Shown here in pieces: positions 18,985 to 52,117 of a DNA stretch of 64,000 nucleotides; within the stretch, counting starts at the first letter, position 1, and the number at the start of each line of letters is the position of its first letter. The position numbers were made by a program, and so were the translations under genes. The stretch spans positions 1-64,000 of the forward strand of contig JAABRM010000024.1 in NCBI GenBank assembly GCA_011390955.1, in the 5' to 3' direction. The stretch comes from Oscillatoriales cyanobacterium. GTDB taxonomy: Bacteria; Cyanobacteriota; Cyanobacteriia; Cyanobacteriales; Laspinemataceae. The notes under the pieces are model-generated. The model was not told the origin of the DNA, ran no database searches, and was given only the letters and a program-made list of their open reading frames with translations.

Positions 18985-19812
18985 TTAAGAATCGTAAGGA
19001 TTCTTCGGTTTGGGGATGGGTGTAATCGAATTGGCTTGAATAGTTAATTGTCGGCGATCGCCAAATTTATCGGTAATCATCACCCCCTGGACTTCTAACC
19101 AAGTATCCGGGGGATAAGCACTGCGATTTTCCGTCAGTTTCACTGGCAAACCCACAGGATAAACATCGGCGGCACAACAAGTAATAATAAATCTGGCCAA
19201 TAAAATATATTGTTCCGGCAATTCCGGGGCATGAATCACAAACCCTTGAACATTCACCGGCTGACCCGTATAAGCATCGGGTTCGGGATAAACCGTCAGT
19301 GTTCTAACCCAGCCAATCAGCGATCGCTCTTCCGGCTTATTATTCGCATTAAAAGCTTGGGGTCTGATTCTGGTAAGCGCCGCCAAATCCCCACCAACGC
19401 TCTGACCGGCCAAAGGCACAAAATCCGTCACCTGTCTTTGCAGGGCTTTATCACTAGCAAAAACCGTCGGTTGGAACATAAAACCCACCAATGCCGCCAC
19501 CATAAACACCGTACCACTCCAACCCAAGGCCGACGAACCGGGATGTTGCATCGGGTTTGCCTGATTCAAACCCCGAGTCTTCACCGGACGACCAATCGGT
19601 AAAAGTTGCCATGCTTTAAAACTGGCAATGGCGATTAACCCCAGACCCCCACACACCGTCAGGCCAAAATAATTGGGATGGATCAGCATACTTAACTCCC
19701 CAGTCACCCAAAGTTTAATCAGTAAAACTCCCCAAGCGAAAATCGCCCCTACATCTAGCCAAGGTTGGGCTTGTTTCCAGAGAGCAGAGTTTGATTGATT
19801 AAACATAGCCAT
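18985..19812 (-). CDS. TIGR03943/DUF1980-type membrane protein, partner of the permease
   Basis: The protein has 275 residues with three membrane segments in the first half (about 20-40, 45-67, 95-113). A soluble C-terminal domain follows, with QGFVIHAPELPEQYILLARFIITCCAADVYPVG, which is typical of TIGR03943/YcgQ-like proteins. These are usually encoded next to a COG0701 permease, as here: the permease gene ends 34 bases upstream on the same strand. The pair is presumed to form one transport complex whose substrate is unknown; the conserved Cys pair (TCCAAD) suggests metal or thiol chemistry, which is an inference. Confidence 0.82.
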   Translation of the reverse strand: MAMFNQSNSALWKQAQPWLDVGAIFAWGVLLIKLWVTGELSMLIHPNYFGLTVCGGLGLIAIASFKAWQLLPIGRPVKTRGLNQANPMQHPGSSALGWSGTVFMVAALVGFMFQPTVFASDKALQRQVTDFVPLAGQSVGGDLAALTRIRPQAFNANNKPEERSLIGWVRTLTVYPEPDAYTGQPVNVQGFVIHAPELPEQYILLARFIITCCAADVYPVGLPVKLTENRSAYPPDTWLEVQGVMITDKFGDRRQLTIQANSITPIPKPKNPYDS

Positions 19813-19846: not shown

Positions 19847-20962
19847 TTAACTAATATTCAGGTTATAAGCCAAACAGACCACAAAGGTGAGTTGAGCGGC
19901 GATAATCATTAAATAAGCCACGGTTTTGGGCTTGAAAATCCACAACAGCAACCCGATCGCTTTGATATCAATCATCGGCCCAAAGACCAAAAAAGCCAGT
20001 AAGGAACCAGTGGTAAAAGTAGAAGCAAAAGATAGGGCAAAAAACGCATCCACCGTGGAACAAATCGACACCACTGTGGCCAAAATCAACATAGCAATAA
20101 TCGAACTGACGGGGCCTTGTCCCAAACCAATAATAATGTCACGAGGGACGAAAATCTGAACAATAGCAGCGATCGCGCTGCCCAGAATCAACACCCCGCC
20201 CAGTTCCCGAATTTCCAGCACCATATTATCCACCACCATCGGCAACTGCTGCACCCAACGGGGCCGACGAGACAATTTAGACCCGAAATTTTGGCCGCGA
20301 TCGCGCATCGGCGCAGCTTCGCGATCGCTGACAGCAGTCCAGCCACTCTGCAAAATATTCGTTTCTAACCGTTGAGGGCTGCCGGTTTCCCCCAGCAAAA
20401 AACTGCCAGACTGTAACAGAGGCGAAATCGGCTCGTCCTGAGATTCCTGAGATGCGCCACTGTCCGATTTAGATCCGAATAAATCCGCCGGACTCATCGA
20501 CTTTGGCATCGCCCGAATCACCGCAGGTTGGAGAAACGGTCGTAAATCTTGCTGCACGCTAAACAACCAGCCCAACAGAGTGGCAATACCCAAAGAAGCG
20601 CCCAACCGCAACACCACCATTTCCGGCAACTCCCGAAACGCAGTCCAAGTAGACCAAACCACAATCGGATTCACCGTCGGCGCCGCAAACAAAAACCCAA
20701 TCGCCACCGGGGGTGGGACGCCCTGAATTAATAACCGACGGGCTACGGGTACATTCCCACATTCACAAACCGGAAAGATACAGCCAATCAAGCTGCCCAC
20801 AAACGCACCGAGAATCGGGTTGCGCGGCAACTTCGCGATCAGCTTGCGCTCTTCCACAAACAACAAAAGCACACTGGAGAAGATTACCCCCAGCAGCAAG
20901 AAAGGAATTGCTTCTGCTAAAAGACTCATCCACAGAGTAAAGGCGTAGTTTAATTGATTCAT
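19847..20962 (-). CDS. Predicted permease (COG0701, DUF318)
   Basis: The 371-residue integral membrane protein has about eight hydrophobic segments in two bundles. They are separated by a polar loop of about 110 residues (roughly 160-265) that contains the recurring QSG/SGSFLLGETGSPQ stretch. Family marks are the CIFPVCECGNVPVARRLL motif with two close cysteines after the second helix, PTVNPIVVWST, and SICSTVDAFFALSF. I start at the ATG at 20962 (MNQLNYAFTLWMSLL), because the 45 codons upstream encode unrelated residues. It is the first gene of a two-gene operon with the TIGR03943 protein. Confidence 0.86.
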   Translation of the reverse strand: MNQLNYAFTLWMSLLAEAIPFLLLGVIFSSVLLLFVEERKLIAKLPRNPILGAFVGSLIGCIFPVCECGNVPVARRLLIQGVPPPVAIGFLFAAPTVNPIVVWSTWTAFRELPEMVVLRLGASLGIATLLGWLFSVQQDLRPFLQPAVIRAMPKSMSPADLFGSKSDSGASQESQDEPISPLLQSGSFLLGETGSPQRLETNILQSGWTAVSDREAAPMRDRGQNFGSKLSRRPRWVQQLPMVVDNMVLEIRELGGVLILGSAIAAIVQIFVPRDIIIGLGQGPVSSIIAMLILATVVSICSTVDAFFALSFASTFTTGSLLAFLVFGPMIDIKAIGLLLWIFKPKTVAYLMIIAAQLTFVVCLAYNLNIS

Positions 20963-21114
20963 CCGTTTGCCGTAATTTACCAGTCTCCCCCAACAGGGTT
21001 TGCTTAGATATTCTATCGCCTGTAATTGTTTTGTTAAATATATTCCTATGAATAACCCCCTGAGAATTGCTATCCTAGAGTCTGCTACATTCAGCACATT
21101 AGGATCTGAAAAGC

Positions 21115-23397
21115 ATGAGAATATTAGTCACGGGTGGGGCGGGGTTTATTGGTTCCCACTTGATCGACCGATTAATGGAGCAAGGACACGATGTTATCTG
21201 TCTGGATAACTTTTTTACCGGCAACAAGCGGAATATCCTCACGTGGATGGATCATCCTTACTTTGAACTGATTCGCCACGATGTCACCGAACCGATTCGC
21301 CTGGAAGTAGATCAGATTTATCATTTGGCTTGTCCCGCTTCCCCGGTTCACTATCAATACAATCCCGTCAAAACGATTAAAACCAACGTAATCGGGACGA
21401 TGAATATGCTGGGGTTAGCCAAGCGGGTTAAAGCGCGATTTCTCATAGCGTCTACCTCTGAGGTCTATGGCGACCCGGACGTGCATCCCCAGACCGAAGA
21501 GTATCGGGGCAATGTGAACTGTATTGGACCGAGGTCCTGCTACGACGAAGGGAAGCGAGTCGCCGAAACCCTGGCTTTTGACTATCATCATCAAAATAAT
21601 GTGGATATTCGGGTAGCGCGAATTTTCAACAGTTTAACCGGCGACCAGCCAGTGATCTATTATCAGGGCGATCGACTCTACTGTGAATCTTTTGCTGACT
21701 GCTACGATCGCATTCACCAAGACATATCCGATATCTCAGTTCCCTGCTTTGACAGCCAAGCCAACATGGTGTTAAAACCAATCTCGGCAATTTGGAAGCA
21801 TAAAGTCACCAAAACAGGGTATGAAATTACCACAACCTGGGGCAAGCGGGTAAAAATTACCGAGGATCACAGCTTGTTTACGCGGGATGAAAATGGTTTG
21901 CCCAAGCCGGTATTTGGTAAAGACCTCCAAGTCGGTGACGATGTTGCCGTTCCAACTCATCTTCCTTTTATCGATAAATCTCTAGAGCCGTTCTACATTA
22001 CCGATAAAATATCTGGCACTGGCGTATCGATATGCCCCGAAGATGTGGTCCCATATCTAGAGCAATACCGAAAGCCAATCTACAACTACTTGCAGCAAAA
22101 AGGAATTAGCTCTCGTCAGCACTTCAGCCACCTGAAAAAATACGAAGCAGGCAATCGCATCCCCTTGGAATTATGGCAGCATTTGGGACTGCCTATTACC
22201 CCCAAAGAATGTATCGCCACGGCAAGTTCTGCCAAACGGGTCAACAACTACATCGAAGATATTGAGGCTTTACTGTGGTTTTTGGGATTTTATCTGGCAG
22301 AGGGATGCCTCGTCTATCGCCAAACGGGAGATTACCAGCTATTGTTCAGCTCTAATTTGAAATATCTGGAGAAGCTGGTGGCAGTATGCCGCTCGTTGTT
22401 TGGATGCGAGTGTGAAATTCGGTGGGATGAAGCTTCCAATAAAGCTCCCTGCGTTCGTCTCCGATCCAAAATAATCGTTGATTTGGTGGTAAATAGTTTT
22501 GGCTTTGGCAAAAATCTCAGTACCGAAAAAGATATTCCTAACTGGATTTTACAGCTACCAAAACAGCAATTAGTACATTTCTTGCACGGATTTTGGCAGG
22601 GAGATGGCAACCATGATGCCAAAACCACCGGGTCGCGGTTAATTTTGAATAGCTCTAGTCCGGCCATTATCGAGAAACTGGTGTTGATTTTGGCTAAATT
22701 TGGTATTGTGGGTTCGGTCTCGGAATTCTATACCACTGCCAGCAAATCAAATCCCAAGCAATACAAGTCTTATCGGCTGACGGTGCAAGGATTGGATCGT
22801 TATGAGATTCTCAGTCTGGCTGATAGCAAACAAACCTTGCAAGCGAAAACCACCAATCACTTGGCTTGGGCAAAAGTGAAGGAAATCTCCGCATTTGAAA
22901 TTGATGATTTTGTCTACGATTTCTCGGTGCCGGAGGGCGAAAATTTCATTGGCGGCACCTATGGAGTTTGCTGTCACAACACTTATGGCCCTCGAATGTT
23001 GGAAAATGACGGACGGGTGGTGAGTAATTTCGTGGTGCAAGCTTTGCAGGGAATTCCTCTGACGGTGTATGGGGATGGTTCCCAAACCCGCAGTTTCTGC
23101 TATGTGTCGGATTTAGTCGAAGGGCTGATTCGGTTGATGAATGGGGATTATATTGGGCCGGTGAATCTGGGAAATCCGGGCGAATATACTATTTTAGAGT
23201 TGGCCGAGAAGATTCAACAGATGATTAATCCCGATGCCCAAATTGAGTTTAAGCCCCTGCCCCAAGACGATCCTCGTCAGCGCCAACCGGATATTACTAA
23301 GGCCAAGCATTACCTAGGCTGGCAGCCGACGGTGCCTTTGGATCGAGGGTTAGAGTTGATGATTCAGGATTTCCGCGATCGCCATTCCTCGACTTAA
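21115..23397 (+). CDS. UDP-glucuronate decarboxylase (UXS-type SDR) precursor containing an intein
   Basis: The 760-residue precursor should splice to a 310-residue enzyme that converts UDP-glucuronate to UDP-xylose. The N-extein has the NAD-binding [10 protein letters not shown] (residues 7-16), a DNFFTG loop, the STSEVYGDP strand and the catalytic Tyr143 and Lys147 of SCYDEGKR. The C-extein continues TYGPRM and carries [15 protein letters not shown] and the closing [13 protein letters not shown]. The extein junction falls inside the highly conserved RIFN/TYGPRM nucleotide-sugar motif after Asn172. Spliced length is normal for the family. UDP-glucose dehydrogenase, which supplies the substrate, is the next plus-strand gene. 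Unspliced protein cannot be active. Confidence 0.93.
21631..22980 (+). mobile_element. Intein with LAGLIDADG homing endonuclease in the UXS gene
   Basis: The insert is 1350 bases (450 residues, precursor 173-622). Splicing block A begins [11 protein letters not shown] with Ser1. Block B has ITEDHSLF, with His at intein position 80. The C-terminal blocks read [15 protein letters not shown] and end GVCCHN, with Thr as the +1 residue. The centre holds two LAGLIDADG-type motifs, [12 protein letters not shown] (precursor about 386-397) and [13 protein letters not shown] (about 486-498), with their acidic residues kept. Both splicing and homing functions therefore look intact. The Cys-Cys pair next to the terminal His-Asn is unusual. 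Confidence 0.93.
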
Positions 23398-23854: not shown

Positions 23855-25234
23855 ATGCGCGTTTGCGTCATTGGTACAGGATATGTTGGTTTAGTCACAG
23901 GTGTTTGCTTGGCTCATACAGGGCATCATGTGATCTGTGTGGATAACAACGAAGAAAAAGTCAAGATGATGAAATCTGGGCAGTCCCCGATTTATGAACC
24001 GGGACTGTCGGAGATTATGCAGTCATCTACCAGTGCGGGACGGCTAGAATTTACCAGTGATTTAGCCGCTGGGGTAAATCACGGAGAAATTCTATTTATT
24101 GCGGTGGGTACTCCACCCTTACCTACGGGAGAAAGCGATACTCGCTATGTGGAAGCGGTAGCCCGTGGGATTGGTAGCCACCTGCAAAAAGGCTACAAGG
24201 TGATTGTGAATAAATCCACGGTGCCGATTGGTTCTGGCGACTGGGTGCGGATGATTGTCCTTGATGGACTGGCGGAACGGGAAAAATCTGGAAGCAAAGG
24301 GGATGAAGTCGCCGCTAAATTGGGAATTGAATTTGATGTGGTCAGCAACCCCGAATTTTTGCGGGAAGGTTCGGCGATTTACGATACCTTTAATCCGGAT
24401 CGAATTGTCCTCGGTGGCAATAGCCAGCGGGCTCTGGATCTGATGGAAGAACTCTATCAACCCCTGATCCAGCGGAAGTTTGCGGCAGATCCTGCTTTGC
24501 CTCCTGTCCCCGTGGTGAAAACTGACCTGAGTTCGGCGGAGATGATTAAATACGCCGCGAATTCCTTCCTGGCAACAAAAATTAGTTTTATTAATGAGAT
24601 TGCTAATATTTGCGATCGCGTGGGCGCCGATGTGGTACAAGTCTCCAAAGGCATTGGCTTAGATTCTCGGATTGGCCCGAAATTCTTACAAGCGGGCATT
24701 GGTTGGGGCGGTTCCTGCTTCCCCAAAGATGTCTCGGCGATGATTCACACTGCTGACGACTATGGCTATGATGCCAAACTGCTCAAATCCGCCGTAGAAG
24801 TCAACAAACACCAGCGGGCGATCGCGATCGAAAAACTTCAGCATGAACTGAAAATCCTCAAAGGCAAAACTGTTGGTTTGTTAGGCTTGACTTTTAAACC
24901 CGATACCGATGATATGCGCGATGCCCCCGCGTTGAATATTATTGAGCAACTCAACCGCTTAGGGGCAAAAGTCAAAGCTTATGACCCAATTGTTTCTCAA
25001 AGTGGCATTGGTCAAGGACTCTCTGGCGTCCTTGTAGAAACCAGCGCCGAACAACTGGCTTTTGGCTGTGATGCATTAGTTTTGATTACGGACTGGAACC
25101 AGTTCCTGCATCTCGACTACGCAAAGATGGCTAAATCGATGAATAATCCGGTGATGATTGATGGTCGGAATTTCCTCGATCGCAAGGCCATTGAAGCTGC
25201 CGGTTTCCGTTATGTGGGTATTGGTCGCTCATAA
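23855..25234 (+). CDS. ugd: UDP-glucose 6-dehydrogenase
   Basis: The 459-residue cytoplasmic enzyme oxidises UDP-glucose twice with NAD to UDP-glucuronate. The N-terminal Rossmann fold begins VIGTGYVGLVTGVCLA. The central domain has the VNKSTVPIG strand, NPEFLREGSA and the catalytic Cys288 in GWGGSCFPKD. The C-terminal UDP-binding domain has GLTFKPDTDDMRDAP and MIDGRNFLD. Length and order are normal. With the upstream decarboxylase it makes a UDP-glucose to UDP-xylose route for exopolysaccharide or envelope glycans. Confidence 0.96.
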   Translation: MRVCVIGTGYVGLVTGVCLAHTGHHVICVDNNEEKVKMMKSGQSPIYEPGLSEIMQSSTSAGRLEFTSDLAAGVNHGEILFIAVGTPPLPTGESDTRYVEAVARGIGSHLQKGYKVIVNKSTVPIGSGDWVRMIVLDGLAEREKSGSKGDEVAAKLGIEFDVVSNPEFLREGSAIYDTFNPDRIVLGGNSQRALDLMEELYQPLIQRKFAADPALPPVPVVKTDLSSAEMIKYAANSFLATKISFINEIANICDRVGADVVQVSKGIGLDSRIGPKFLQAGIGWGGSCFPKDVSAMIHTADDYGYDAKLLKSAVEVNKHQRAIAIEKLQHELKILKGKTVGLLGLTFKPDTDDMRDAPALNIIEQLNRLGAKVKAYDPIVSQSGIGQGLSGVLVETSAEQLAFGCDALVLITDWNQFLHLDYAKMAKSMNNPVMIDGRNFLDRKAIEAAGFRYVGIGRS

Positions 25235-32468: not shown

Positions 32469-35400
32469 ATGTCAGTAAATCATCCAATAGATCCAAAAAA
32501 TGAAATAAATAAAACTGCGTTAAAAACATCCGATTTCGGACGATCGCCCCTCGAGACACCAGAAGATGAAGTTAATCATTTAGAATCAAGCTATAGCCAG
32601 GAAAAAGCTCTATTATCGGTAATTAAACTAATTCAAAAATCTCTAAATTTAGAGAGTATTTTTCAAACCGTAGTCACGGAAGTTCGTGAGGGCTTGAAAG
32701 TCGATCGCGTTGCCATTTATCGGTTCGCTCCAGCAACAGAAAATCCCGGTGTTCAGCCAGAAATAAATCTAGTAAATTTATTGGCATCCAGGGTTACGGC
32801 TTACCCGCCGGGAGAATTTGTCTGTGAAAATGTCGGGCAAAAGTTTCCTGCCGCTTTGGGGATGAAAATTCCGCATGGTGTAGGGGCGCAATGCTTGCGC
32901 CCTGCCGCCACAGAAATTGCCAATATTGTCAATTACGATCGGGGAGAAATTTGGGCTTTTAATCATATCGATGCCGCCGAATTACCATCATGGGATTGGG
33001 AAATTATGGGGCTATTGCAGGTAAAGGCAAATCTGACATTGCCGATTTTAATCGGCGAAAAAGCTTGGGGTTTGCTCTGCGTTCACCAATGTTCTGAACC
33101 GCGCCATTGGCAGGATTCAGAGATTAAATTGGCGCAAAATATTGCCCTGCAATTGGGAATTGCGGTGCAGCTTATGGAGTCGGTGCAAGAATTACGCCAG
33201 CAATCAGAGAAGTTAGCCTCAACGGTGGAGCGAGCGGTGGGACGGGAAAAGGCGGTGGCGGCGATTATTAATCGCATTCGTCGATCGCTGGATTTACCCA
33301 CGATTTTTCAAACCACCGCTTCTGAGGTGCGGCAACTTTTGCAATGCGATCGCGTGGCTATTTTTCGTTTTGAGCCCAATTCTAACTATACCGATGGGGA
33401 AATCGTTGCGGAGGATGTGGTGCCACCGTTTGTTTCCACCATTGCCCGGAAAGTTCACGACCATTGTTTTGGCGGAGAGTACGCCAGTCAGTATCAGCAG
33501 GGTCGGATGCAGGTGCTGGCGGATATCTACGCAGCAGGACTGAGTGATTGTCATCAAGCACTGCTGGAGGGGTTTCAGGTCAGAGCCAATCTGGTGGTGC
33601 CGTTATTAAAAGGGGAAAAACTCTGGGGATTAATCTGTATTCATCAATGTTCTAAACCGAGGGCATGGCAAGATCGAGAAATTGAGTTTGTCAGCCAAAT
33701 TGCCGATCATTTGGCGATCGCCCTGCAACAAGCGGAGTATGTGGCGCAACTGCAAGACCAGTCGCAGCAGTTGGTGGCGTCGGTGCGACAACAAAAAGTG
33801 TTAGCCGCTGTGATTGATAAAATTCGGCGATCGCTGAATCTAGAAACCGTATTTCAAACCACCACTGAAGAAGTTCGACATTTGCTCCAAGCTGACCGAG
33901 TAGCGATTTACCGCTTCAATGCTGATTGGAGTGGGGAATTTGTCATGGACTCCGTGGCCCAAGGGTGGACTTCCATTGTCCAGCAACGGTTAAATCGCCT
34001 GGGTTCGGGCAAAGTGGGCGAATGTGCCGTCAAAACCGATCCGGTAAATTTAGATGATTACCACCAATTTACCGATAGCTATATTCAAGAAACTGAAGGG
34101 GGTGAGTTTAAGCATGGGGAAATTTGTCTGGTTTGCCCAGATATTTACCATGCCGGGTTTCCCTCATGCTATATCGAAACTTTGGAGCGCTATGAAGCCC
34201 GGGCTTATGCGGTGGTTTCTATTTATCAAGGGGAAAAACTCTGGGGTTTATTAGCGGCTTATCAAAATTCTCAACCCCGTTATTGGCACCAGACCGATGT
34301 GAATTTTTTGCTTCAGATCGGCACGCAACTAGGAGTGGCGATCCAAGAAGCAGAGTTACTCACGCAGACGCAACAGCGATCGGTGGAGTTGGAAACCGCT
34401 TTGACGACTCAATTACGCAAACGGGCAGATGAGTTGGCAGAGGAGGCGCAACGAGAACGGGCTTTGGCGGAAGTGATTGAGAAGATCCGGCAAACTTTGG
34501 ATTTAGATACGATTTTCCATACCGCAGCTTGCGAACTGCGGCGGCAAATGCACGCCGACCGTGTGGGGGTGTTTCGGTTTGCTTCCAATTCTTGCTATGA
34601 GGGAGAGTTTATTTCCGAAGATGTCCTGCCTCCTTTTCATTCCGCATTGGCAGCCAAAGTGCGCGATCGCTGTTTTGCGGAACAGTTTGTCCACGAATAT
34701 CGCCGAGGTCGGGTTCTGAGTATTCCCGACATTTATAATGACTGCCTCAGTGATTGTCACATTAAGATTCTGGAACGGTTCCAAATTCGGGCTAATCTGA
34801 TTGTGCCGGTGTTAAAAGGAGAACAACTTTGGGGTTTACTCTGCATTCATCAATGTTCCAGTCCCCGGCATTGGCAACCCAGAGAAATTGAATTTGTGCG
34901 AAAAATCGCGATTCAATTAGGGGTCGCGGTGCAACAAGCCAAATTATTGGAACAAGCCGAACAACGGTCGGAAGCCCTGCAAGAAGCTTTGGCCCAAGTT
35001 CAAGCCCAAAAAGAACAACTCACCAGGGCGACGGAGCAAGAACGCGCCCTCGGTCAAGTGATTGATAAAATTCGCCAAACCCTAGATTTGGAAACGATTT
35101 TTCAGACTACGGCGATCGAGGTGCGGCGACTGCTGAATGCAGACCGGGTGGGAATGTTTCGCTTTGACTCTGCCATGACCCCAGAAGGGCAGGCTACAGG
35201 CAGTCAGGTTCCACCTTATTCTTGCGGGGAATTTGTGTCCGAAGACTTAATCCCCTCTTTTAGTTCCGCTTTGGCGGCCAAAATAGAGGACCATTGTTTT
35301 GGCAACCACCATGCCCTGTATTACCAACAAGGAAGAGCTTGGGCTGCCAATGATATTTATGCGGCGAATATTTCCCAGTGTCATAAGGATATTCTGGAAC

Positions 35401-37376
35401 GGTTTCAGGTGCGGGCGAATTTGGTGGTGCCGTTGCTCAAAGGCGAAGAACTTTGGGGTTTACTTTGCATTCACCAATGTTCTGGGCCGCGAGAGTGGCA
35501 AGATTGGGAAATTGAATTTGTCAAGAAAATTGCGGTGAATTTGGGGGTGGCTTTGCAACAAGCGGAACTGCTGAACCAAGCCCAGCAGCGCTCTCAGGAG
35601 TTACAAATTGCCCTGGCCCAGGTGCAAGCGCAAAAAGAACATCAGGCGAAATTGGCTCAACAAGAACGGACTTTGGCCAGAGTAATTGAACGGATTCGTC
35701 AGACTTTGGAACTGGAAGCTATATTTAGTAGCACCACTCAGGAAGTCCGCCAAATGCTTAACTGCGATCGCGTGGTGGTCTATCAGTTTAATCCCAACTG
35801 GAGCGGTCAATTTGTTTACGAGTCCCATTGCCAAGGCTGGAAATCTTTGTTAATTGGAGCAGACATCGATCCGGTTTGGCACGATCCCTATTTACAAGAG
35901 ACTCAAGGGGGCAGATATGCCAACCACGAAACTTTTGCCATTGACGATCTCGACCGAGTGGAACTAGCCCCTTGCCACAGGGAAATTCTGGAAAGCTTTG
36001 AAGTGAAAGCGTTTGCGGTGGTGCCCGTCTTTGTCGGTGACAAGTTATGGGGTTTACTGGGAGCTTATGAGCATCAGAGTCCCCGCCATTGGGAAGACCG
36101 AGAAATTGCTTTGTTAGCCCAAGTCGCGAACCAGTTGGGCGTGGGAATTAATCAGGCAGAGTTGCTCACCCAAACCAAAACTCAGTCTCGGCAACTGCGG
36201 AGCACTCTGGCGGATCTGAGTGCGATTATTGATAATTTGGCTGATGGGTTATTGGTGACTGATACTCGGGGTCGGATTACTCGCTTTAATCCCGCATTGC
36301 TGGCGATGTTTAATTTGCAAGGGGTGGATTTACGGGGACGACAGCTTGCAGAAAATTTTCCCCCTGAGTTGGCCCGGTTAGTGCTTCAGACGGAGCGATC
36401 GGAACAAAAAATTGTCACCGTTGATGTTGAACTAGAAAACCACCGCGCCGGTCAAGCCCTGGCCACCAGTATTGTCAAAGAAGCGGAAATGGATGAAGGG
36501 GAACAATGTCTCGGTTCGGTGATTTTAATCCGTGATGTCACCGTTGAGCGAGAAGTCGATCGCATGAAAACCGAGTTTCTGGCTACGGTGTCCCACGAAC
36601 TCCGCACCCCCCTGACTTCTGTACTAGGTTTTGCCTCGATTATTAAGGAAAAACTCGAAGAAACGATCTTACCGGGAATTGCTCCAGAGAATCGCAAGAC
36701 CTTTAAAGCTACTCAACGAGTTTTGGACAATATCAATATTATTGTTTCCGAGGCGGAACGCTTGACCTCTCTGATTAATGATGTGTTGGATATCGCCAAA
36801 ATGGAGGCGGGTCCTATGGAATGGGATATTAAGCCCGATGACCCGGTGCAAATCCTCAAACAAGCTTTGGCGGCGACTTCCTCTTTGTTTGAAAGGCATC
36901 GGTTGCAGTTGATTCAGGAGATTCCCCCAGAATTGCCCCAGGTTTTGGTCGATCGCGATCGCATGATCCAGGTAGTGATTAATCTGATTTCCAATGCGGT
37001 GAAATTTTCTGAACAAGGCTGCGTGATCTGTGAAGCCGCCGTGCAGCCTTGCTCCCCGGACTCTTTTGCTGCCCATATTGCCCATAAATTTACCGATCCC
37101 TTTAATTTAGGAGTTTCCCTCGATGCCGAACAAGAACTAACGATCCGCATCACGGATACGGGGATTGGTATCGCCGAAGATGACCAGAACAAAGTGTTTG
37201 AAAGGTTTAAACAAGTCGGCAATATTCTCACGAATAAGCCGAAAGGAACGGGTTTAGGTTTACCCATCTGCAAACAAATCGTGGAACACCACGGGGGTCG
37301 CATTTGGGTCGAAAGTAAACTCGGATTAGGCAGCACTTTTTCTTTCACGATCCCCATTGTCAAGCAGCGGAACTAA
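32469..37376 (+). CDS. Six-GAF photoreceptor-type histidine kinase with three DXCF cyanobacteriochrome domains
   Basis: The protein has 1635 residues with no membrane segments. Six tandem GAF domains lie at about residues 50-240, 265-430, 445-635, 670-830, 875-1040 and 1070-1230. They are linked by coiled coils (LAQVQAQKE). A PAS (about 1250-1340), HisKA (His1376 in VSHELRTPL) and HATPase (ending GTGLGLPICKQIVEHHGG) follow. GAF2, GAF4 and GAF5 each have a DXCF cysteine (Cys333, Cys735, Cys943) and a canonical CH cysteine exactly 28 residues later (361, 763, 971), the two-Cys arrangement of DXCF cyanobacteriochromes. GAF1, GAF3 and GAF6 lack it. It probably senses blue or green light and signals to the receiver gene downstream. 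Chromophore binding is inferred. Confidence 0.92.
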   Translation: MSVNHPIDPKNEINKTALKTSDFGRSPLETPEDEVNHLESSYSQEKALLSVIKLIQKSLNLESIFQTVVTEVREGLKVDRVAIYRFAPATENPGVQPEINLVNLLASRVTAYPPGEFVCENVGQKFPAALGMKIPHGVGAQCLRPAATEIANIVNYDRGEIWAFNHIDAAELPSWDWEIMGLLQVKANLTLPILIGEKAWGLLCVHQCSEPRHWQDSEIKLAQNIALQLGIAVQLMESVQELRQQSEKLASTVERAVGREKAVAAIINRIRRSLDLPTIFQTTASEVRQLLQCDRVAIFRFEPNSNYTDGEIVAEDVVPPFVSTIARKVHDHCFGGEYASQYQQGRMQVLADIYAAGLSDCHQALLEGFQVRANLVVPLLKGEKLWGLICIHQCSKPRAWQDREIEFVSQIADHLAIALQQAEYVAQLQDQSQQLVASVRQQKVLAAVIDKIRRSLNLETVFQTTTEEVRHLLQADRVAIYRFNADWSGEFVMDSVAQGWTSIVQQRLNRLGSGKVGECAVKTDPVNLDDYHQFTDSYIQETEGGEFKHGEICLVCPDIYHAGFPSCYIETLERYEARAYAVVSIYQGEKLWGLLAAYQNSQPRYWHQTDVNFLLQIGTQLGVAIQEAELLTQTQQRSVELETALTTQLRKRADELAEEAQRERALAEVIEKIRQTLDLDTIFHTAACELRRQMHADRVGVFRFASNSCYEGEFISEDVLPPFHSALAAKVRDRCFAEQFVHEYRRGRVLSIPDIYNDCLSDCHIKILERFQIRANLIVPVLKGEQLWGLLCIHQCSSPRHWQPREIEFVRKIAIQLGVAVQQAKLLEQAEQRSEALQEALAQVQAQKEQLTRATEQERALGQVIDKIRQTLDLETIFQTTAIEVRRLLNADRVGMFRFDSAMTPEGQATGSQVPPYSCGEFVSEDLIPSFSSALAAKIEDHCFGNHHALYYQQGRAWAANDIYAANISQCHKDILERFQVRANLVVPLLKGEELWGLLCIHQCSGPREWQDWEIEFVKKIAVNLGVALQQAELLNQAQQRSQELQIALAQVQAQKEHQAKLAQQERTLARVIERIRQTLELEAIFSSTTQEVRQMLNCDRVVVYQFNPNWSGQFVYESHCQGWKSLLIGADIDPVWHDPYLQETQGGRYANHETFAIDDLDRVELAPCHREILESFEVKAFAVVPVFVGDKLWGLLGAYEHQSPRHWEDREIALLAQVANQLGVGINQAELLTQTKTQSRQLRSTLADLSAIIDNLADGLLVTDTRGRITRFNPALLAMFNLQGVDLRGRQLAENFPPELARLVLQTERSEQKIVTVDVELENHRAGQALATSIVKEAEMDEGEQCLGSVILIRDVTVEREVDRMKTEFLATVSHELRTPLTSVLGFASIIKEKLEETILPGIAPENRKTFKATQRVLDNINIIVSEAERLTSLINDVLDIAKMEAGPMEWDIKPDDPVQILKQALAATSSLFERHRLQLIQEIPPELPQVLVDRDRMIQVVINLISNAVKFSEQGCVICEAAVQPCSPDSFAAHIAHKFTDPFNLGVSLDAEQELTIRITDTGIGIAEDDQNKVFERFKQVGNILTNKPKGTGLGLPICKQIVEHHGGRIWVESKLGLGSTFSFTIPIVKQRN
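32878..32903 (+). repeat. GTAGGGGCGCAATGCTTGCGCCC palindromic repeat inside GAF1 coding sequence
   Basis: GGGCGCAATGCTTGCGCCC is an interspersed-type palindrome like the GGGGCGAAGCATTCC motifs in intergenic DNA of this window. Here it lies in frame, encoding VGAQCLRP between IPHG and AATEIANIVNY of GAF1, and keeps the frame open. Confidence 0.6.
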
Positions 37377-38699: not shown

Positions 38700-40070
38700 A
38701 TGATTCATATTAATCTAAAAAAACTGATTTCTAAGCCTGATATTTCATTAGCGATGAAAAACCTGGTGGCAGCCTTAGATCCTAACATTGCGATTTGGGA
38801 TGCCAAAGGAACCATCCTAATTGGAAATGCCAATTCCCTAGAACATCTCTCACAAAAATATCCGATTAAAACGGCTTCAGAAATTGTTGGCTGGGTGACT
38901 GGATCGGAAAAAGCTGAGTTATTCGTCCAGATTATCAGTTATATTGCCAATCAAGAATTAGAAAAGAAAACTCTCGCTATTGAAACTTTGGAAAAATACG
39001 AAGAGATCAACTTTTTGTATGAGATTTCCAGTAAATTTGCGGTTTGTGTGGGGATTAAAGAGATTATTGAATTCGTGATTTCTGAAGCGCAGAAACTTAT
39101 CGGGGGAACCAATGTTTCTGTGATGTTAATTAATGAAGAAACGAAAAAACTTGAGATTATTGCCGCACGGGGTCAAGAAAATAACCAAAAAACTGTGATG
39201 GAAGCAGGGGTGGGGATTGCCGGTCATGTTTTAGCCTCTGGTGAAGCAGAAATTGTCAATGATGTGGACTCAGATCCGAGATATATTCCCGGTGAAAATC
39301 AAATTAATTCTTTATTATGTGCCCCTTTAATTGCAGCTAGTGGCACCCTGGGAGTAATTAATATTAGTAATGCCAATCCTACCCACTATACCGCTCAGGA
39401 TTTAAAACGATTTAAAGCTCTCGCTGCCCCAGCGGCAGTGGCGATTGAAAATGCCCGCTTATATGAACAACTTAGGGAATATTCGCGGAATTTAGAGCAA
39501 CAAGTAGCTCAACGAACCGCCCAACTGGAAAGAGCGAATCAGGAATTACAACGCCTTGCTAGTTTAGATGGTTTAACCCAAGTAGGCAACCGCCGCCGTT
39601 TTGATGAGTATCTGATGGAGAATTGGCAGCGGTTAATTAATGAGATTGCGCCGATGTCTTTAATTATGTGTGATGTGGACTGTTTTAAAAGTTATAATGA
39701 TAGTTATGGCCATCTGATGGGCGATGATTGTTTACAACGAATCGCGAAAGCCATTACCTGTGCGGTGAAACATCCAGCCTATTTAGTTGCCCGCTATGGA
39801 GGAGAAGAGTTTGCGATCGTTTTGCCGAATACCAGTGCTAGAGGCGGGATGTATATTGCGGAGACGATTAAGATTGAAATTGAATGGCTAAAAATTCCGC
39901 ATATTCAATCCAGCGTGAGTAAATATGTGACGGTGAGTATGGGGGTTTCTAGTACCATTCCTTCGGAGCAATATTCCCCACAGGATTTAATTGCAGCGGC
40001 GGATATTGCTCTTTATGAAGCGAAAAATCAGGGGCGCGATCGCATTGTATTTCAGGCGCTCCCTGATTAA
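38700..40070 (+). CDS. GAF-GGDEF diguanylate cyclase
   Basis: The protein has 456 residues. An N-terminal segment of about 95 residues (LDPNIAIWDAKGTILIGN, PAS-like) is followed by a GAF domain (about 105-255), a short coiled coil (RNLEQQVAQRTAQLERANQEL) and a GGDEF domain (about 285-452) with the catalytic GGEEF at about 367-371. It should make cyclic di-GMP from two GTP. The RxxD inhibitory site expected five residues before GGEEF is absent (AYLVARY), so product feedback through that site is unlikely. No cyanobacteriochrome cysteine pattern is visible. Probably cytoplasmic. Confidence 0.92.
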   Translation: MIHINLKKLISKPDISLAMKNLVAALDPNIAIWDAKGTILIGNANSLEHLSQKYPIKTASEIVGWVTGSEKAELFVQIISYIANQELEKKTLAIETLEKYEEINFLYEISSKFAVCVGIKEIIEFVISEAQKLIGGTNVSVMLINEETKKLEIIAARGQENNQKTVMEAGVGIAGHVLASGEAEIVNDVDSDPRYIPGENQINSLLCAPLIAASGTLGVINISNANPTHYTAQDLKRFKALAAPAAVAIENARLYEQLREYSRNLEQQVAQRTAQLERANQELQRLASLDGLTQVGNRRRFDEYLMENWQRLINEIAPMSLIMCDVDCFKSYNDSYGHLMGDDCLQRIAKAITCAVKHPAYLVARYGGEEFAIVLPNTSARGGMYIAETIKIEIEWLKIPHIQSSVSKYVTVSMGVSSTIPSEQYSPQDLIAAADIALYEAKNQGRDRIVFQALPD

Positions 40071-46997: not shown

Positions 46998-48662
46998 ATG
47001 ACTATGGGTGTAGGCCGATCGCTCCTAAAATTAACTATTGGGACTGGCTGTGCGTTTATGGGCTTGACCTGTTCGCCAATTCTGATCGAAGCAGGAAGTG
47101 TTTTGGGTCCAATCTTAGCCTCTTTTTTAGGAAACGTGGCCATCAGCACTACAGCTAATTCCCTTGATGACTTAACCGCAGGGCAAGACCCGGATAGGGT
47201 ATCCCTACAAAATCAGGATTTAACGCGGGCGGTGGGAAAAGCGATCGCCGCCGTTATTACCCTCGAAGCCAGAAAACACCCCGGCAAAACCCGTCAATAT
47301 TTAGAAAAAATTGCTGCCCAAGCCAAAGATAACTGGGTCAAAATCGCCCAACAGGAACTCACCCAGCAACGTTACCCCGAACTGCGAGAAGCGAAACTCG
47401 ATCAATTCCTGACTCCCGAAGAATACCAACTCACCCAACAAGGCAACCTCACCGCTACAGAATGGGGGGATATTTTCGTCCGCCTCAACATGGCAGCTTG
47501 TAAAGGGGGCGGCTTTCCCATTCCCTCGGAGGTGCGTCAACAAGTCGCGGAATTACTCCATACTACCTTCCCCAAAGCCTTGCGAGAAACCCTCAAAGAA
47601 GACTTTGCCAAGGATGGGAAAGCCTTTGCGGGGTTAACGTTGCAGTTACTCACGGGAATGCAGGCACAACTGAGGCAACTGCAAGCCAATCCAGGGGATG
47701 TCAATGCTGAGGAGTTCAGCCAAATCCTGCAACAGTTTCAGGAATTGGAAACCCAGTTACGGGGAAACGTCACCCAGCAACAGGCATTTTTTACCGATAT
47801 TTCCGGCAGGATTGATTCCGGTTTTGCGGAAGTCTGTCAACGGTTGGGGGTGATGGAAACCCAAATCGCTCAGTTGTTGCAAGGACTGGAAAGCACCCTA
47901 GAAAGTTTGGTGGCAGAAATTCGATCGCATTTTGATGCCGCTAACCCCCATCTTTCCTTAGCAGAATGGCGACCCATTGCCGAGTTAATGCTGGCTAACC
48001 GACAGGCATTAACCGCTAATCCGGCATTTAAGCGGGTGGATGTCTATGTGCCGTTGGCATTGGTGGAACGTCGCCAAACTCAGCAACGGAAACCGGGGCA
48101 AAGTTTGGAAAATCCAGAAGAGTGGGGACGGGAAGAAGAGAGAATGACTCCCATCGCCGAGGATGAGTTTTTCGATCGGGTTTTGCGGCAGGGAAAAAGT
48201 CCCCAAAGTCAGGGGCGACGGATTGCGGTGATTGGCGAACCGGGGTCAGGAAAAACGACGCGGTTACAGGCGATCGCCGATTGGATATTGGCAGAACATC
48301 TCGGCATCCCGATTTGGATTGACTTGGCACAATTTACCGAACCGACTCTGGTGGATTATCTGGAAAAATGGCTGAAGTCGGCGGGAGTTGCAGGGGCGAT
48401 CGCCTCTCTCCAAGACCATCAAGAGCATCTCTGGTTATTGATGGATGGCTTGGATGAAATGGTAGCCCGGATTGAACAGCCCCATGTGTCCCAGTTATTA
48501 ACCGGGTGGGTGGGGTTAGGACGGGCGATTATTACCTGTCGGGTGAATGTCTGGGAAGCCGATCGAAATGCCTTTTCGGGGTTTGATGTCTATCGGAATT
48601 TACCCTTTGAGGCGGATCAAATGGAAACCTTTATCCGGCGATTCTTTGCCCAGACTGATTAA
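46998..48662 (+). CDS. NACHT NTPase, N-terminal fragment (gene split by cassette)
   Basis: The 554-residue fragment starts with a hydrophobic, glycine-rich segment (about 10-50). A helical region follows (about 60-390), then the start of a NACHT domain with the Walker A motif GEPGSGKTT at about 413 and Walker B LWLLMDGLDEM at about 477. It ends ETFIRRFFAQTD, exactly where an intact protein would continue into LxxLxxPGREHLLDLVRNPLRL. That continuation is found as the start of the gene at 49607. The intervening 950 bases hold two other genes. Intact relatives are NLR-like defence or signalling ATPases. This fragment probably cannot hydrolyse NTP normally. Confidence 0.8.
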   Translation: MTMGVGRSLLKLTIGTGCAFMGLTCSPILIEAGSVLGPILASFLGNVAISTTANSLDDLTAGQDPDRVSLQNQDLTRAVGKAIAAVITLEARKHPGKTRQYLEKIAAQAKDNWVKIAQQELTQQRYPELREAKLDQFLTPEEYQLTQQGNLTATEWGDIFVRLNMAACKGGGFPIPSEVRQQVAELLHTTFPKALRETLKEDFAKDGKAFAGLTLQLLTGMQAQLRQLQANPGDVNAEEFSQILQQFQELETQLRGNVTQQQAFFTDISGRIDSGFAEVCQRLGVMETQIAQLLQGLESTLESLVAEIRSHFDAANPHLSLAEWRPIAELMLANRQALTANPAFKRVDVYVPLALVERRQTQQRKPGQSLENPEEWGREEERMTPIAEDEFFDRVLRQGKSPQSQGRRIAVIGEPGSGKTTRLQAIADWILAEHLGIPIWIDLAQFTEPTLVDYLEKWLKSAGVAGAIASLQDHQEHLWLLMDGLDEMVARIEQPHVSQLLTGWVGLGRAIITCRVNVWEADRNAFSGFDVYRNLPFEADQMETFIRRFFAQTD

Positions 48663-48704
48663 CCCAACTCATTTATAATGATCGTTAGATTTTGGATGCT
48701 CATC

Positions 48705-49115
48705 ATGTCCCTCACCATCGCTCTGAATCCTGAACTAGAAGCTAAACTCCTGGCTGAAGCAAAGCAGCAGGGTCAAAGTTTGGATACATTTCTCCAGCAA
48801 TTGCTATCTCAAGCATTGGGAGTGTCCGAGCCTGATGCTTGGTTAGGGGAGGATAGTTTAGCGGCAGATTTATACAGTCCCGTGGCTTTGTTGGATGATG
48901 ATGGGGTAATCGCGTTGGCACAGATGAAGCTAGATGCTGGGCAAAATCAGCGTTTGGGAGATTTACAAGCGAAAGGAAAGGCTCAGGGCTTAACCCAAGC
49001 GGAGCGATATGAACTATTGATGTTAATGCAGAGTTATCGTTTGGGATTATTGCGAAAATCCGAAGCCTTAGCCGAAGCCAAAGCGCGGGGTTTAAGCCCC
49101 AATCTTGCCCCATGA
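48705..49115 (+). CDS. Ribbon-helix-helix-like small protein, partner of HNH nuclease
   Basis: The protein has 136 residues. The N-terminus (MSLTIALNPELEAKLLAEAKQQGQSLDTFLQQLLSQAL) has the strand-helix-helix pattern of CopG/Arc-type DNA-binding antitoxins. The C-terminal part is helical and ends LAEAKARGL. I take the ATG at 48705, because a TATAAT-like box at 48674-48679 would start transcription just before it and an RHH domain normally begins at the N-terminus. The next gene's ATG overlaps the stop in ATGA. The pair inserts into a NACHT gene. Confidence 0.6.
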   Translation: MSLTIALNPELEAKLLAEAKQQGQSLDTFLQQLLSQALGVSEPDAWLGEDSLAADLYSPVALLDDDGVIALAQMKLDAGQNQRLGDLQAKGKAQGLTQAERYELLMLMQSYRLGLLRKSEALAEAKARGLSPNLAP

Positions 49116-49537
49116 GTTTATCTGACCCGGTACGTCAAATCGTTCGTCAACGTGCCGGAAACTGTTGTGAATATTGCTTGAGCCATCAAGATTACATTAT
49201 GGGTCGGTTACAGGTCGATCACATACTACCCGTGGCAAAGGGGGGTGGTGATGAGTTGGAAAATCTCTGTTTAGCTTGTGAATTATGTAATCAATATAAG
49301 TGGACAAAGACGAAATTCAACGATCCACAGACTGGGCAATCTATAGCTTTGTTTAATCCTCGTCAACAACAATGGTCAGATCATTTTCAATGGAGTGATG
49401 ATGGGACAGAAATTATTGGTTTGACGGCTTGTGGTCGTGCCACTGTAGCCGCATTACAGCTTAACAATTCATTGGCGGTGGTTGTGCGCCGAAATTGGGT
49501 TAGGGCTGGCTGGCATCCACCGACATTGAACACATAA
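49112..49537 (+). CDS. HNH endonuclease
   Basis: The protein has 141 residues. The HNH/McrA-type core contains CCEYC at about 18-22, VDHILPVAKGGGDELENLCLACELCNQYK (about 36-64) with His and Asn of the active site and a second CxxC. A C-terminal tail of beta character (NSLAVVVRRNWVRAGWHPP) follows. Overlap of four bases with the upstream RHH-like gene means they are translated together. Such pairs recur in cyanobacterial genomes. Here they sit inside a NACHT gene, consistent with a mobile or self-maintaining cassette. Cleavage specificity is unknown. Confidence 0.82.
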   Translation: MSLSDPVRQIVRQRAGNCCEYCLSHQDYIMGRLQVDHILPVAKGGGDELENLCLACELCNQYKWTKTKFNDPQTGQSIALFNPRQQQWSDHFQWSDDGTEIIGLTACGRATVAALQLNNSLAVVVRRNWVRAGWHPPTLNT

Positions 49538-49606
49538 AGTCGCTCCTTACCGGGACAATAAACGATGCTTTAGTGATTAGCTTTTGATTTCTCAAACAAG
49601 AATGCC

Positions 49607-52117
49607 ATGACAAATTCCACTTTAACTCCTGCCGATGCGCTAATTGCCGCCCTCCATGAACCGGGACGGGAACATCTCCTTGATTTAGTCCGCAATCCCT
49701 TGCGTTTGACCTTGCTCTGCATGACTTGGGATGGGTCATCGTTGCCGGAAACTCAGGCGGAGTTATATGAGCGTTATCTGAGAAAGATTTATGAGTGGAA
49801 TCAGAATTGGCATGAGTTGGAAAAGTATGCCGAACGTTGTGGCACGACCACCACGAAATTAAAGCAGGATTTGAATCAGCAATTGGGGGAACTGGCAAAG
49901 GCGGCGCTGAATTTGCCCCAGGAGCGATTTCGGTTATCACAGGCTTTGGTGGAACAGCATCTAGGGGAGGAATGGGATCGGACTTCCTTGGGTTATTTGG
50001 CGTTGCGGTTGGGCTGGTTAAATCGGGTGGGCAAAGATGGGCGCGGCGATAGTATTTTTGCCTTTTATCATGCCACGTTTCAGGAGTATTTTGCGGCGTT
50101 GGCGGTGGAGGATTGGGATTATTTTCTGCCTCGGAATCATGTGGATTGTCCGGTAGCGGGGAAGCGGTATCGGATTTTTGAGAAGCAGTGGAAGCAGGTG
50201 ATTTTGTGTTGGTTGGGGCGTGGGGATATTGAGGATGAGAAGAAGGAGGGTTTTATTCGTGCATTGATTGAGTTTAATGATGGCTGTGGAGAGTGGAATT
50301 TTGAGAAAGTAGATAGAGGATTTTATGAATATCATGCCTATTTTCTTGCAGCGGCGGGTGTGAATGAGTTTAAGGCTTGTTCTCTGGCAAATGAGATTAT
50401 TCGGCAGGTAGTGAAGCGGAGCACGGGTGATTTCAATAGTGAAACACAGGAGTGGCGAGATTATTTAATGCCAACCCTCGAAGGATTAAGAGAAATTATT
50501 ATCCAAGGAAAAATCCGACAAAAGTGGATTTCGGAAATTATTGCTACATCAATTTCGATTATCAAAACTACTCAGGATGAAACAGAACGCCGAAATGCAG
50601 TGAGGATTTTTGGTGAAGCTCCACAGGACAATTCAGATTTAAGTTTCGCTTGGAACACCGCTGTACAGGGGAATTTAGAGGTGATCGCCGCTTTGGTCTG
50701 GACTCTGGAAACCACTGAGAACGAACATACCTGTGATGATGCGATGTATAGTTTGGGTGAAATTGCACAGGGGAATCCAGAGGTAATCTCAGCATTAATT
50801 CGGCTTCTCGAAACAACTCAAGACGAAAAAAAATGTGAGAGTATAGCGAGAAATTTTGATAAGATTACACAAGAAACTTCATCGGTGACTAAAGATTTAA
50901 TCCGCATTATCAAGACTACTAATAATGAAAATATTCGCTGTAGTGTGATGTATCACGTTTTGAATAAAATTGCACAAGGAAATCTAGAGGCAATCACCGC
51001 TTTAGTCCGCATTCTCGAAACTACTAATGACGAAAATACCCGTTGTCATGCCGTGTATAGTTTGGGTGAAATCGCAGAAAGGAATCCAGAGGCGATCGCC
51101 GCTTTAGTCCGCATTCTCGAAACTACCGAGGATGAAGATACCTGTTGGATAGCGGCGAATAGTTTGGAGCGAATCGAACCGGGAAATCCAGCAGTGATTC
51201 CAGCCTTAATCCGGATTCTCGAAACCACTGAGGATAAAGATGTCCTTTGTACAGTAATGTATCGTTGGGATGAAATCGCACAGGGAAATCCAGAGGAGAT
51301 CGCAGCATTAATCCGCATTTTTGAAACCACCGAGGATTACAATACTCGTTGGAAAGCGGCAGAGATTGTGGGTAAAATCGCACAGGGGAATTCAGAGGCG
51401 ATCGCCGCTTCAATTCGTATTCTCGAAACTACTGAGGATGAATTCTCCGATACTCTGCCGTCGGAGTTGCCCGATCTACCATTACTCTGCTTCAACACTT
51501 CTCAAGATATCCGTTGGAAAGCGGCAGAGATTGTGGGTAAAATTGCACAAGGACATCCAGAGGCGATCGCCGCTTTAATCCAGATTCTCAAAACTACTCA
51601 GGACGAAGATACCCGTCGCAATGCACTGTATAGTTTGGGTAAAATCGCACAGGGACATCCAGAGGCGATCGCGGCTTTAATCCACCTTCTCGAAACTACT
51701 CAGGATGAACATACCCGTTTAACTGTGGCGCAAAATTTGATTCAAATTGCACAAGGACATCCAGAGGCGAACACGGCTTTAATCTGGCTTCTCGAAACTA
51801 CTCAGGATGAACATACCCGTTTAACTGTGGCGCAAAATTTGATTCAAATTGCACAAGGACATCCAGAGGCGATCGCCGCTTTAATCTGGCTTCTCGAAAC
51901 TACTCAGGACGAATATACCCGTCGCCAAGTAGCGAGAAGTTTAGGTGAAATCGCACCGGAAAATCCAGAGGCGATCGCCGCTTTAATCTACCTTCTCAAA
52001 ACTACTCAGGACGAAAATACCCGTTGCACAGTAGCGAGAAGTTTAGGTGAAATCGCACCGGAAAATCCCCAGGCGATCGCCGCTTTAATCCACTACCTTG
52101 AAACTACTTATGTTTAA
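49607..52117 (+). CDS. NACHT C-terminal part with HEAT-repeat array (fragment)
   Basis: The fragment has 836 residues. Residues 10-160 complete the NACHT module (REHLLDLVRNPLRLTLLCMTW, then FAFYHATFQEYFAALAVEDW). Residues about 290-836 are HEAT-type repeats of 34 residues (AQGHPEAIAALIWLLETTQDEHTR). Two adjacent repeats are identical over 85 bases at DNA level (51686-51770 and 51788-51872). The reading frame stops at a TAA where its repeats predict GAA, and continues in another frame after a 10-base insertion. The original protein also included the genes at 46998 and 52098. The start ATG at 49607 is created by the cassette boundary. Confidence 0.8.
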   Translation: MTNSTLTPADALIAALHEPGREHLLDLVRNPLRLTLLCMTWDGSSLPETQAELYERYLRKIYEWNQNWHELEKYAERCGTTTTKLKQDLNQQLGELAKAALNLPQERFRLSQALVEQHLGEEWDRTSLGYLALRLGWLNRVGKDGRGDSIFAFYHATFQEYFAALAVEDWDYFLPRNHVDCPVAGKRYRIFEKQWKQVILCWLGRGDIEDEKKEGFIRALIEFNDGCGEWNFEKVDRGFYEYHAYFLAAAGVNEFKACSLANEIIRQVVKRSTGDFNSETQEWRDYLMPTLEGLREIIIQGKIRQKWISEIIATSISIIKTTQDETERRNAVRIFGEAPQDNSDLSFAWNTAVQGNLEVIAALVWTLETTENEHTCDDAMYSLGEIAQGNPEVISALIRLLETTQDEKKCESIARNFDKITQETSSVTKDLIRIIKTTNNENIRCSVMYHVLNKIAQGNLEAITALVRILETTNDENTRCHAVYSLGEIAERNPEAIAALVRILETTEDEDTCWIAANSLERIEPGNPAVIPALIRILETTEDKDVLCTVMYRWDEIAQGNPEEIAALIRIFETTEDYNTRWKAAEIVGKIAQGNSEAIAASIRILETTEDEFSDTLPSELPDLPLLCFNTSQDIRWKAAEIVGKIAQGHPEAIAALIQILKTTQDEDTRRNALYSLGKIAQGHPEAIAALIHLLETTQDEHTRLTVAQNLIQIAQGHPEANTALIWLLETTQDEHTRLTVAQNLIQIAQGHPEAIAALIWLLETTQDEYTRRQVARSLGEIAPENPEAIAALIYLLKTTQDENTRCTVARSLGEIAPENPQAIAALIHYLETTYV

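Follow-up and report, generated by a model that had tools for sequence, protein, structure and literature searches.

Inteins favor proteins of DNA metabolism as hosts and also occur in metabolic enzymes (PMC7765530, excerpt). Closest in pathway to the case described here is the 'udp' intein allele in UDP-glucose 6-dehydrogenase of halobacteria, Methanocaldococcus jannaschii, and Dictyoglomus, a nucleotide-sugar enzyme acting right before UDP-glucuronate decarboxylase (UDP-xylose synthase, UXS) (PMC4071816, excerpt). Two neighboring intein sites within one gene, with single and double alleles, are known from the archaeal replicative helicase, for which homing has been measured, whereas for UXS we infer it from sequence. 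Among the closest inteins in structure are PI-PkoII (2cw7) and TliVMA (7qss), which combine the Hint splicing fold with an inserted LAGLIDADG endonuclease and reside in archaeal hosts.

The UXS gene studied here lies in a 64,000-nucleotide stretch (the window) of contig JAABRM010000024.1 from an Oscillatoriales cyanobacterium. A single open frame of 760 codons (21115–23397, plus strand) contains the UXS frame, split in frame by a 450-residue intein between the N and T of RIFN/TYGPRM (site b). The coordinates of the insert and the junction, as given by a first-pass annotation of this DNA, proved exact to the codon. Compared to the 'udp' allele, enzyme, site, and organisms are different, and the UDP-glucose dehydrogenase (UGD) of the window is itself uninterrupted. 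The features of the locus are as follows.

21115..21630, plus strand: N-extein, UXS residues 1–172, ending in RVARIFN and containing the SDR catalytic YDEGK; aligned with 4gll residues 7–178
21535..21540, plus strand: empty site a, codons S141/C142; in other cyanobacteria, including two genomes of the same genus, it is occupied by a different intein
21631..22980, plus strand: intein at site b, 450 aa, from Ser1 to His-Asn; assigned by PF14890, TIGR01445, TIGR01443, AlphaFold2, and Foldseek
21631..21669, plus strand: block A region, including the nucleophile Ser1; SLTGDQ shared by all 28 aligned site-b inteins
21859..21870, plus strand: block B, T-E-D-H; T77, D79, and H80 invariant in 28 of 28
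22282..22305, plus strand: LAGLIDADG motif 1 (LGFYLAEG, acid E224)
22579..22608, plus strand: LAGLIDADG motif 2 (acid D325); Pfam LAGLIDADG_3 spans intein residues 315–377
22912..22956, plus strand: block F with Asp430; VYDFSVP invariant in 28 of 28
22957..22980, plus strand: block G (TYGVCCHN) ahead of Thr+1; H449 and N450 shared by all 28
22981..23397, plus strand: C-extein, TYGPRM to the stop codon; aligned with 4gll residues 177–310
23855..25234, plus strand: UGD, intein-free, with three Pfam UDPG_MGDP_dh domains; next gene downstream of UXS

The two exteins together (ORF residues 2–173 and 622–755) matched human UXS1 with E values of 5.6e-130 (4gll) and 6.1e-130 (2b69), gap-free within each piece. 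The Y-x3-K motif of SDR enzymes is catalytic, and its conservation (YDEGK), together with the end-to-end homology to 4gll, identifies the host as a UDP-glucuronate decarboxylase. RIFN and TYG, which flank the intein, are invariant columns in an alignment of 15 UXS sequences. A bacterial intein-like (BIL) domain was considered and rejected for the insert, since BIL domains occur in non-conserved regions of hypervariable proteins (PMC2814812, excerpt) and the insert sits between these invariant motifs rather than in a variable region. The same source states that inteins generally favor conserved sites (PMC2814812, excerpt), in agreement with the insertion into the UXS core, where only a precise loss would spare the enzyme.

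Profile searches with the 450-residue insert returned Pfam Intein_splicing (PF14890, 2.7e-18) and LAGLIDADG_3 (PF14528, 3.5e-8) as well as both NCBIfam intein ends, TIGR01445 intein_Nterm with 35.7 bits (cut-off 24.5) and TIGR01443 intein_Cterm with 25.6 bits (cut-off 15.6). These matches are far beyond chance. Ser1, T77, H80, D430, H449, and N450 are invariant in all 28 aligned site-b inteins, an alignment of the window intein and 27 named loci from which the 28th, the incomplete L038, was left out. An in-frame insertion with homologues lacking it, a Ser1 nucleophile, T77-E-D-H80, H449-N450 followed by Thr+1, and profile scores above curated cut-offs define the insert as an intein, and the two motifs with the acids E224 and D325 together with the PF14528 match define a putative LAGLIDADG homing endonuclease.

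An AlphaFold2 model of the intein, built with 28 sequences, reached a pLDDT of 91.2 and a pTM of 0.90; modeling of the complete precursor gave low values (pLDDT 73.9, pTM 0.63), and that model was left unused. In Foldseek, the best matches to the intein model were PI-PkoII, TliVMA, PhoVMA, PI-PfuI, and PI-SceI, with 2cw7 (PI-PkoII) on top (E 1.3e-29), and all top 15 matches were intein-endonuclease entries, which assigns the predicted model to the Hint fold. TM scores by query length were 0.71 for PI-PkoII and 0.65 for TliVMA. The Foldseek alignments show 20% and 14% sequence identity, respectively, and the host proteins are different; by sequence, too, 2cw7 is the nearest solved chain. A full-length LAGLIDADG intein within a UXS gene, as the first-pass annotation had put it, is thus supported by the profiles and motifs, by homologues that have or lack the insert, and by the predicted fold, and each of the splicing blocks that annotation had listed (Ser1, block-B His, His-Asn, Thr+1) as well as both LAGLIDADG motifs was confirmed.

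The site-b intein is patchily distributed. Site b is occupied in six of 59 genomes of relatives, the window's own included, and three others (G001, G002, and G015) carry an intein at another site. In the remaining 50, UXS residues 1–173 were matched in ORFs of 309–409 aa, short and uninterrupted UXS frames with no room for either intein. Within the family (14 genomes), site b is filled in two (own and G003), site a only in two (G001 and G002), and ten have UXS ORFs of 313–332 aa. Among 386 genomes of the phylum, eight, including the window's own, showed full-length matches to the site-b intein (48–100% identity), and six more showed partial matches only (27–31%) in ORFs of 1180–1643 aa. The first-pass annotation had proposed looking for inteins at RIFN/TYGPRM of UXS homologues; a scan of the genomes of 84,980 species, using two short peptide patterns of the window intein that divergent relatives may escape, found this same insertion in scattered cyanobacteria. 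The 28 site-b loci, some of which are the same contigs as in the two sets above, are all cyanobacterial by record title and span Oscillatoriaceae, Kamptonema, Microseira, Okeania, Trichodesmium, Hydrocoleum, Spirulina, Prochloron, Paraprochloron, Cyanaurora, and other cyanobacteria. The insert is present in independent assemblies, including the single-contig genomes G028 and G051. Fourteen stretches of viral contigs showed a pattern match, none of them encoding a relative; one plasmid record (a hypothetical protein) and two phage records gave weak partial matches only (22–26% identity, 54–56% of the query). No carrier of the intein was found among viral contigs, plasmids, and phages.

A second intein site in UXS (site a), empty in the window and hence beyond what the first-pass annotation could see, is located at S/CYDEGKR, where a single residue separates the junction from the catalytic Tyr; site b follows 31 codons (93 nt) downstream. 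The site-a intein (L063, L064, L065, L067, L068, L070–L073, and the double carriers) shares the host gene and a LAGLIDADG endonuclease with the site-b intein. It differs from the latter in its length of 331–349 residues (complete rows parsed), in Cys1, in a terminal Asn, or Gln in some members, followed by Cys+1, and in its insertion beside the catalytic Tyr. Five members from double carriers (L005, L007, L020, L021, and L023) match LAGLIDADG_3 and gave neither an Intein_splicing match at E 0.01 nor a TIGR intein-end match; in these five, the site-a intein is too divergent for the Pfam splicing profile. What supports the assignment as an intein is therefore its position, the residues at the junction, a T-P-N-H block B, and the existence of homologues without the insert. 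At four loci with a match span of about 1.97 kb, an insertion inside the site-b intein was considered and rejected, as these are UXS genes with the site-a intein as well.

Both inteins are present in 14 parsed loci (L041 being incomplete); the extein tree of 43 genes described below includes 13 of them. Site a is occupied in ten of the 386 phylum genomes, six without and four with site b. Among the 385 phylum genomes besides the window's own, site a is filled in ten, site b in seven, and both in four (Fisher p 7.9e-6); the association of the two inteins is at most suggestive, as three of the four double genomes share one family code and are not independent.

Occupancy is swapped within the genus of the window: G001 and G002 have site a filled and site b empty, and the window shows the reverse. 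Between the window and L063 (G001), extein DNA identity is 97.0% and dS is 0.096, and the missing site-b intein in the two sister genomes can be a gain in the window lineage or a loss in theirs. Over 24 nt to either side, the sister's empty site b differs from the window by 1 mismatch. Four of the 19 synonymously differing codons in this pair fall within codons 139–144 around site a (p 1.4e-4; p 1.7e-3 when widened to codons 137–146), a cluster pointing to a recent exchange there in the sister lineage with co-conversion of the flanks. At site b, one of the 19 lies nearby (p 0.32 and 0.47), giving no support for co-conversion in this pair.

Movement of the site-b intein is suggested by the comparison with L031 (Oscillatoriaceae M33_DOE_052). 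Silent differences between the two lineages (Nei-Gojobori) are lower in the intein (0.513) than in the extein (0.696, p 5.7e-5) and in UGD (0.759, p 3.7e-10); with extein and UGD close to saturation or saturated, the contrast serves as a rough clock. Most simply, the intein would have moved horizontally between the window and L031 lineages after their split. For the same pair, dN/dS was 0.030 in the extein, 0.105 in the intein, and 0.133 and 0.120 in the endonuclease region by two cuts, values that indicate purifying selection on the window intein. On the extein tree, the fewest state changes were 11 for site a and eight for site b, rough counts given that many of its 43 rows were picked for carrying an intein and that support is good for only 14 of the 39 inner branches. 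The intein of L018 groups with those of the window and L031 (100/100), and its extein falls outside (93/71). A transfer to the L018 lineage was considered and dropped, since a tree holding the four exteins together was not rejected (AU p 0.245); the AU p value of 0.002 for the window and L031 exteins held together alone reflects that L063 is the sister of the window, and nothing more.

Endonuclease decay was found in other members. Both catalytic acids are retained in ten of 30 distinct site-b inteins, among them the window intein (L006 and L053, being one contig, were entered as a single intein). The other 20 lack the first acid, and 17 of these lack the second as well. Within the Trichodesmium/Okeania/Hydrocoleum group, all 14 inteins have Q, K, or R in place of the first acid, E, and 13 of the 14 have N in place of the second, D, with the splicing residues kept. 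A Cys-Cys pair just before the terminal His-Asn, present in the window intein and several relatives, is not conserved, as all 14 inteins of this group end in FAHN. Each of the 14 genomes, for which completeness is not given, has one UXS match at E ≤ 1e-40, interrupted, in an ORF of 762–1139 aa. Median dN/dS in the group (90 of 91 pairs; one pair outside the extein dS limits was dropped) rises from 0.075 in the extein to 0.118 in the splicing domain and 0.345 in what was once the endonuclease region. The latter value is below 1, so this region is still somewhat constrained, perhaps for structural reasons; the PolB intein of Haloferax volcanii is reported to need its endonuclease domain for splicing (PMC10643990, excerpt). 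With these acids lost, the Trichodesmium/Okeania intein would no longer home by itself, although it is retained at almost its full length. It is conceivable, albeit unlikely in our view, that the host has recruited it as a post-translational switch for UDP-xylose synthesis or, at loci with an occupied site a, that it rides on the site-a endonuclease 93 nt away.

In the genome of the window, which is 95.1% complete, one place matches the N-terminal part of UXS at E ≤ 1e-40. As this is the sole UXS found, UXS maturation and activity should depend on splicing. UGD, encoded next downstream, catalyzes the preceding step of the pathway. A Pfam Intein_splicing search of the genome revealed four other intein hosts, DnaB, ThyX, GyrB, and RtcB, on contigs C67, C84, C41, C71, and C28 (L077–L080, L082, and L083); for RtcB, two contig ends each hold one piece, and the pieces apparently belong to one gene. 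Together with UXS, the genome thus holds at least five inteins.

Several other genes of the window were recorded. An ArsP-type permease ORF (19847–21097, minus strand) lies beside a DUF1980 protein (18985–19812, minus strand), both oriented divergently from UXS, and the longest permease ORF, by its predicted start, begins 18 bases before the UXS start codon. A histidine kinase of 1635 aa with six GAF stretches and one PAS domain (32469–37376, plus strand) is followed by a GAF-GGDEF diguanylate cyclase (38700–40070). Successive ORFs at 46998–53627 (plus strand) contain a NACHT domain (reaching the end of a 554-aa ORF), HEAT repeats, and the NACHT C-terminal modules NCAB1 and NCC-H; this is a NACHT-type protein, perhaps of defense or signaling, and looks split across several frames.

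The insert is very probably a full-length bifunctional intein, a mobile parasite that resides in a conserved metabolic gene and is tolerated through clean splicing. That the 450 residues are instead a normal UXS domain, a finding that the first-pass annotation had named as counting against an intein, is refuted by human UXS1 and the short UXS ORFs of relatives, which lack them, and the recurrence of the insert in independent assemblies speaks against an artefact; the probability of either is practically nil. A splicing-defective insert would leave a broken UXS gene, and the first-pass annotation had likewise named catalytic mutations blocking splicing in all related strains as counting against an intein. 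The splicing residues are invariant in 28 of 28, the exteins are intact, and dN/dS of both extein and intein is low, which makes this explanation very improbable.

A further explanation is conditional protein splicing, with the intein as a switch that matures UXS, and hence controls UDP-xylose and cell-surface glycans, only under a certain redox, salt, or temperature condition. The interrupted gene being the only UXS found in the genome, the position of both sites within the conserved core, and the Cys-Cys pair ahead of His-Asn are consistent with it, as are the Trichodesmium/Okeania inteins, all without the first acid, with a region still constrained and a single interrupted UXS per genome. 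However, the sister genomes of the same genus manage without a site-b intein, 50 of 59 relatives have a short UXS, and the cysteines are not conserved. An endonuclease that is live by its acids and the silent-site signal of transfer suit a parasite, and the 14 group loci, having been retrieved through the site-b intein itself, are uninformative on the frequency of its loss. We therefore regard a switch as improbable. The first-pass annotation had stated that splicing would control UDP-xylose supply; this is true in the weak sense that the sole UXS found should depend on splicing, whereas regulation of the supply by the intein is unsupported, though possible, and the patchy spread suits a parasite better.

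For the mobile intein, the following course can be proposed from the residues present. The precursor would be translated whole; Ser1 and Thr+1 would perform the acyl shifts and Asn450 would cyclize, releasing a 310-residue UXS and a free intein of 50 kDa. The LAGLIDADG domain of the latter would then cut intein-free UXS alleles at RIFN/TYGPRM, and repair would copy the intein in. Intact splicing and endonuclease anatomy, precise insertion into the core, patchy spread, the silent-site signal of transfer, and relatives with a decayed endonuclease were all observed. The insert is best read as a mobile intein of the ordinary kind whose host gene is unusual, and invasion, decay, and retention can all be seen.

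A literature search combining inteins with UDP-glucuronate decarboxylase, UDP-xylose, NAD-dependent epimerase, or cyanobacterial decarboxylase returned no UXS intein within its partial coverage, which did not extend to InBase or the large intein catalogues. This agrees with the remark in the first-pass annotation that it knew of no described intein in a sugar-nucleotide decarboxylase. Among the best 25 of 56 NCBIfam families matching the whole protein, there was no model of an intein-containing UXS. UXS is apparently an undescribed intein host enzyme with two sites, and a carbohydrate-pathway enzyme thereby joins a class whose known hosts lean to DNA metabolism. In this one gene, empty, single (a or b), and double states as well as intact and decayed endonucleases are found, with a swap in one genus, which makes UXS a convenient natural system for homing, interference between neighboring inteins, and the persistence of inteins with a dead endonuclease.
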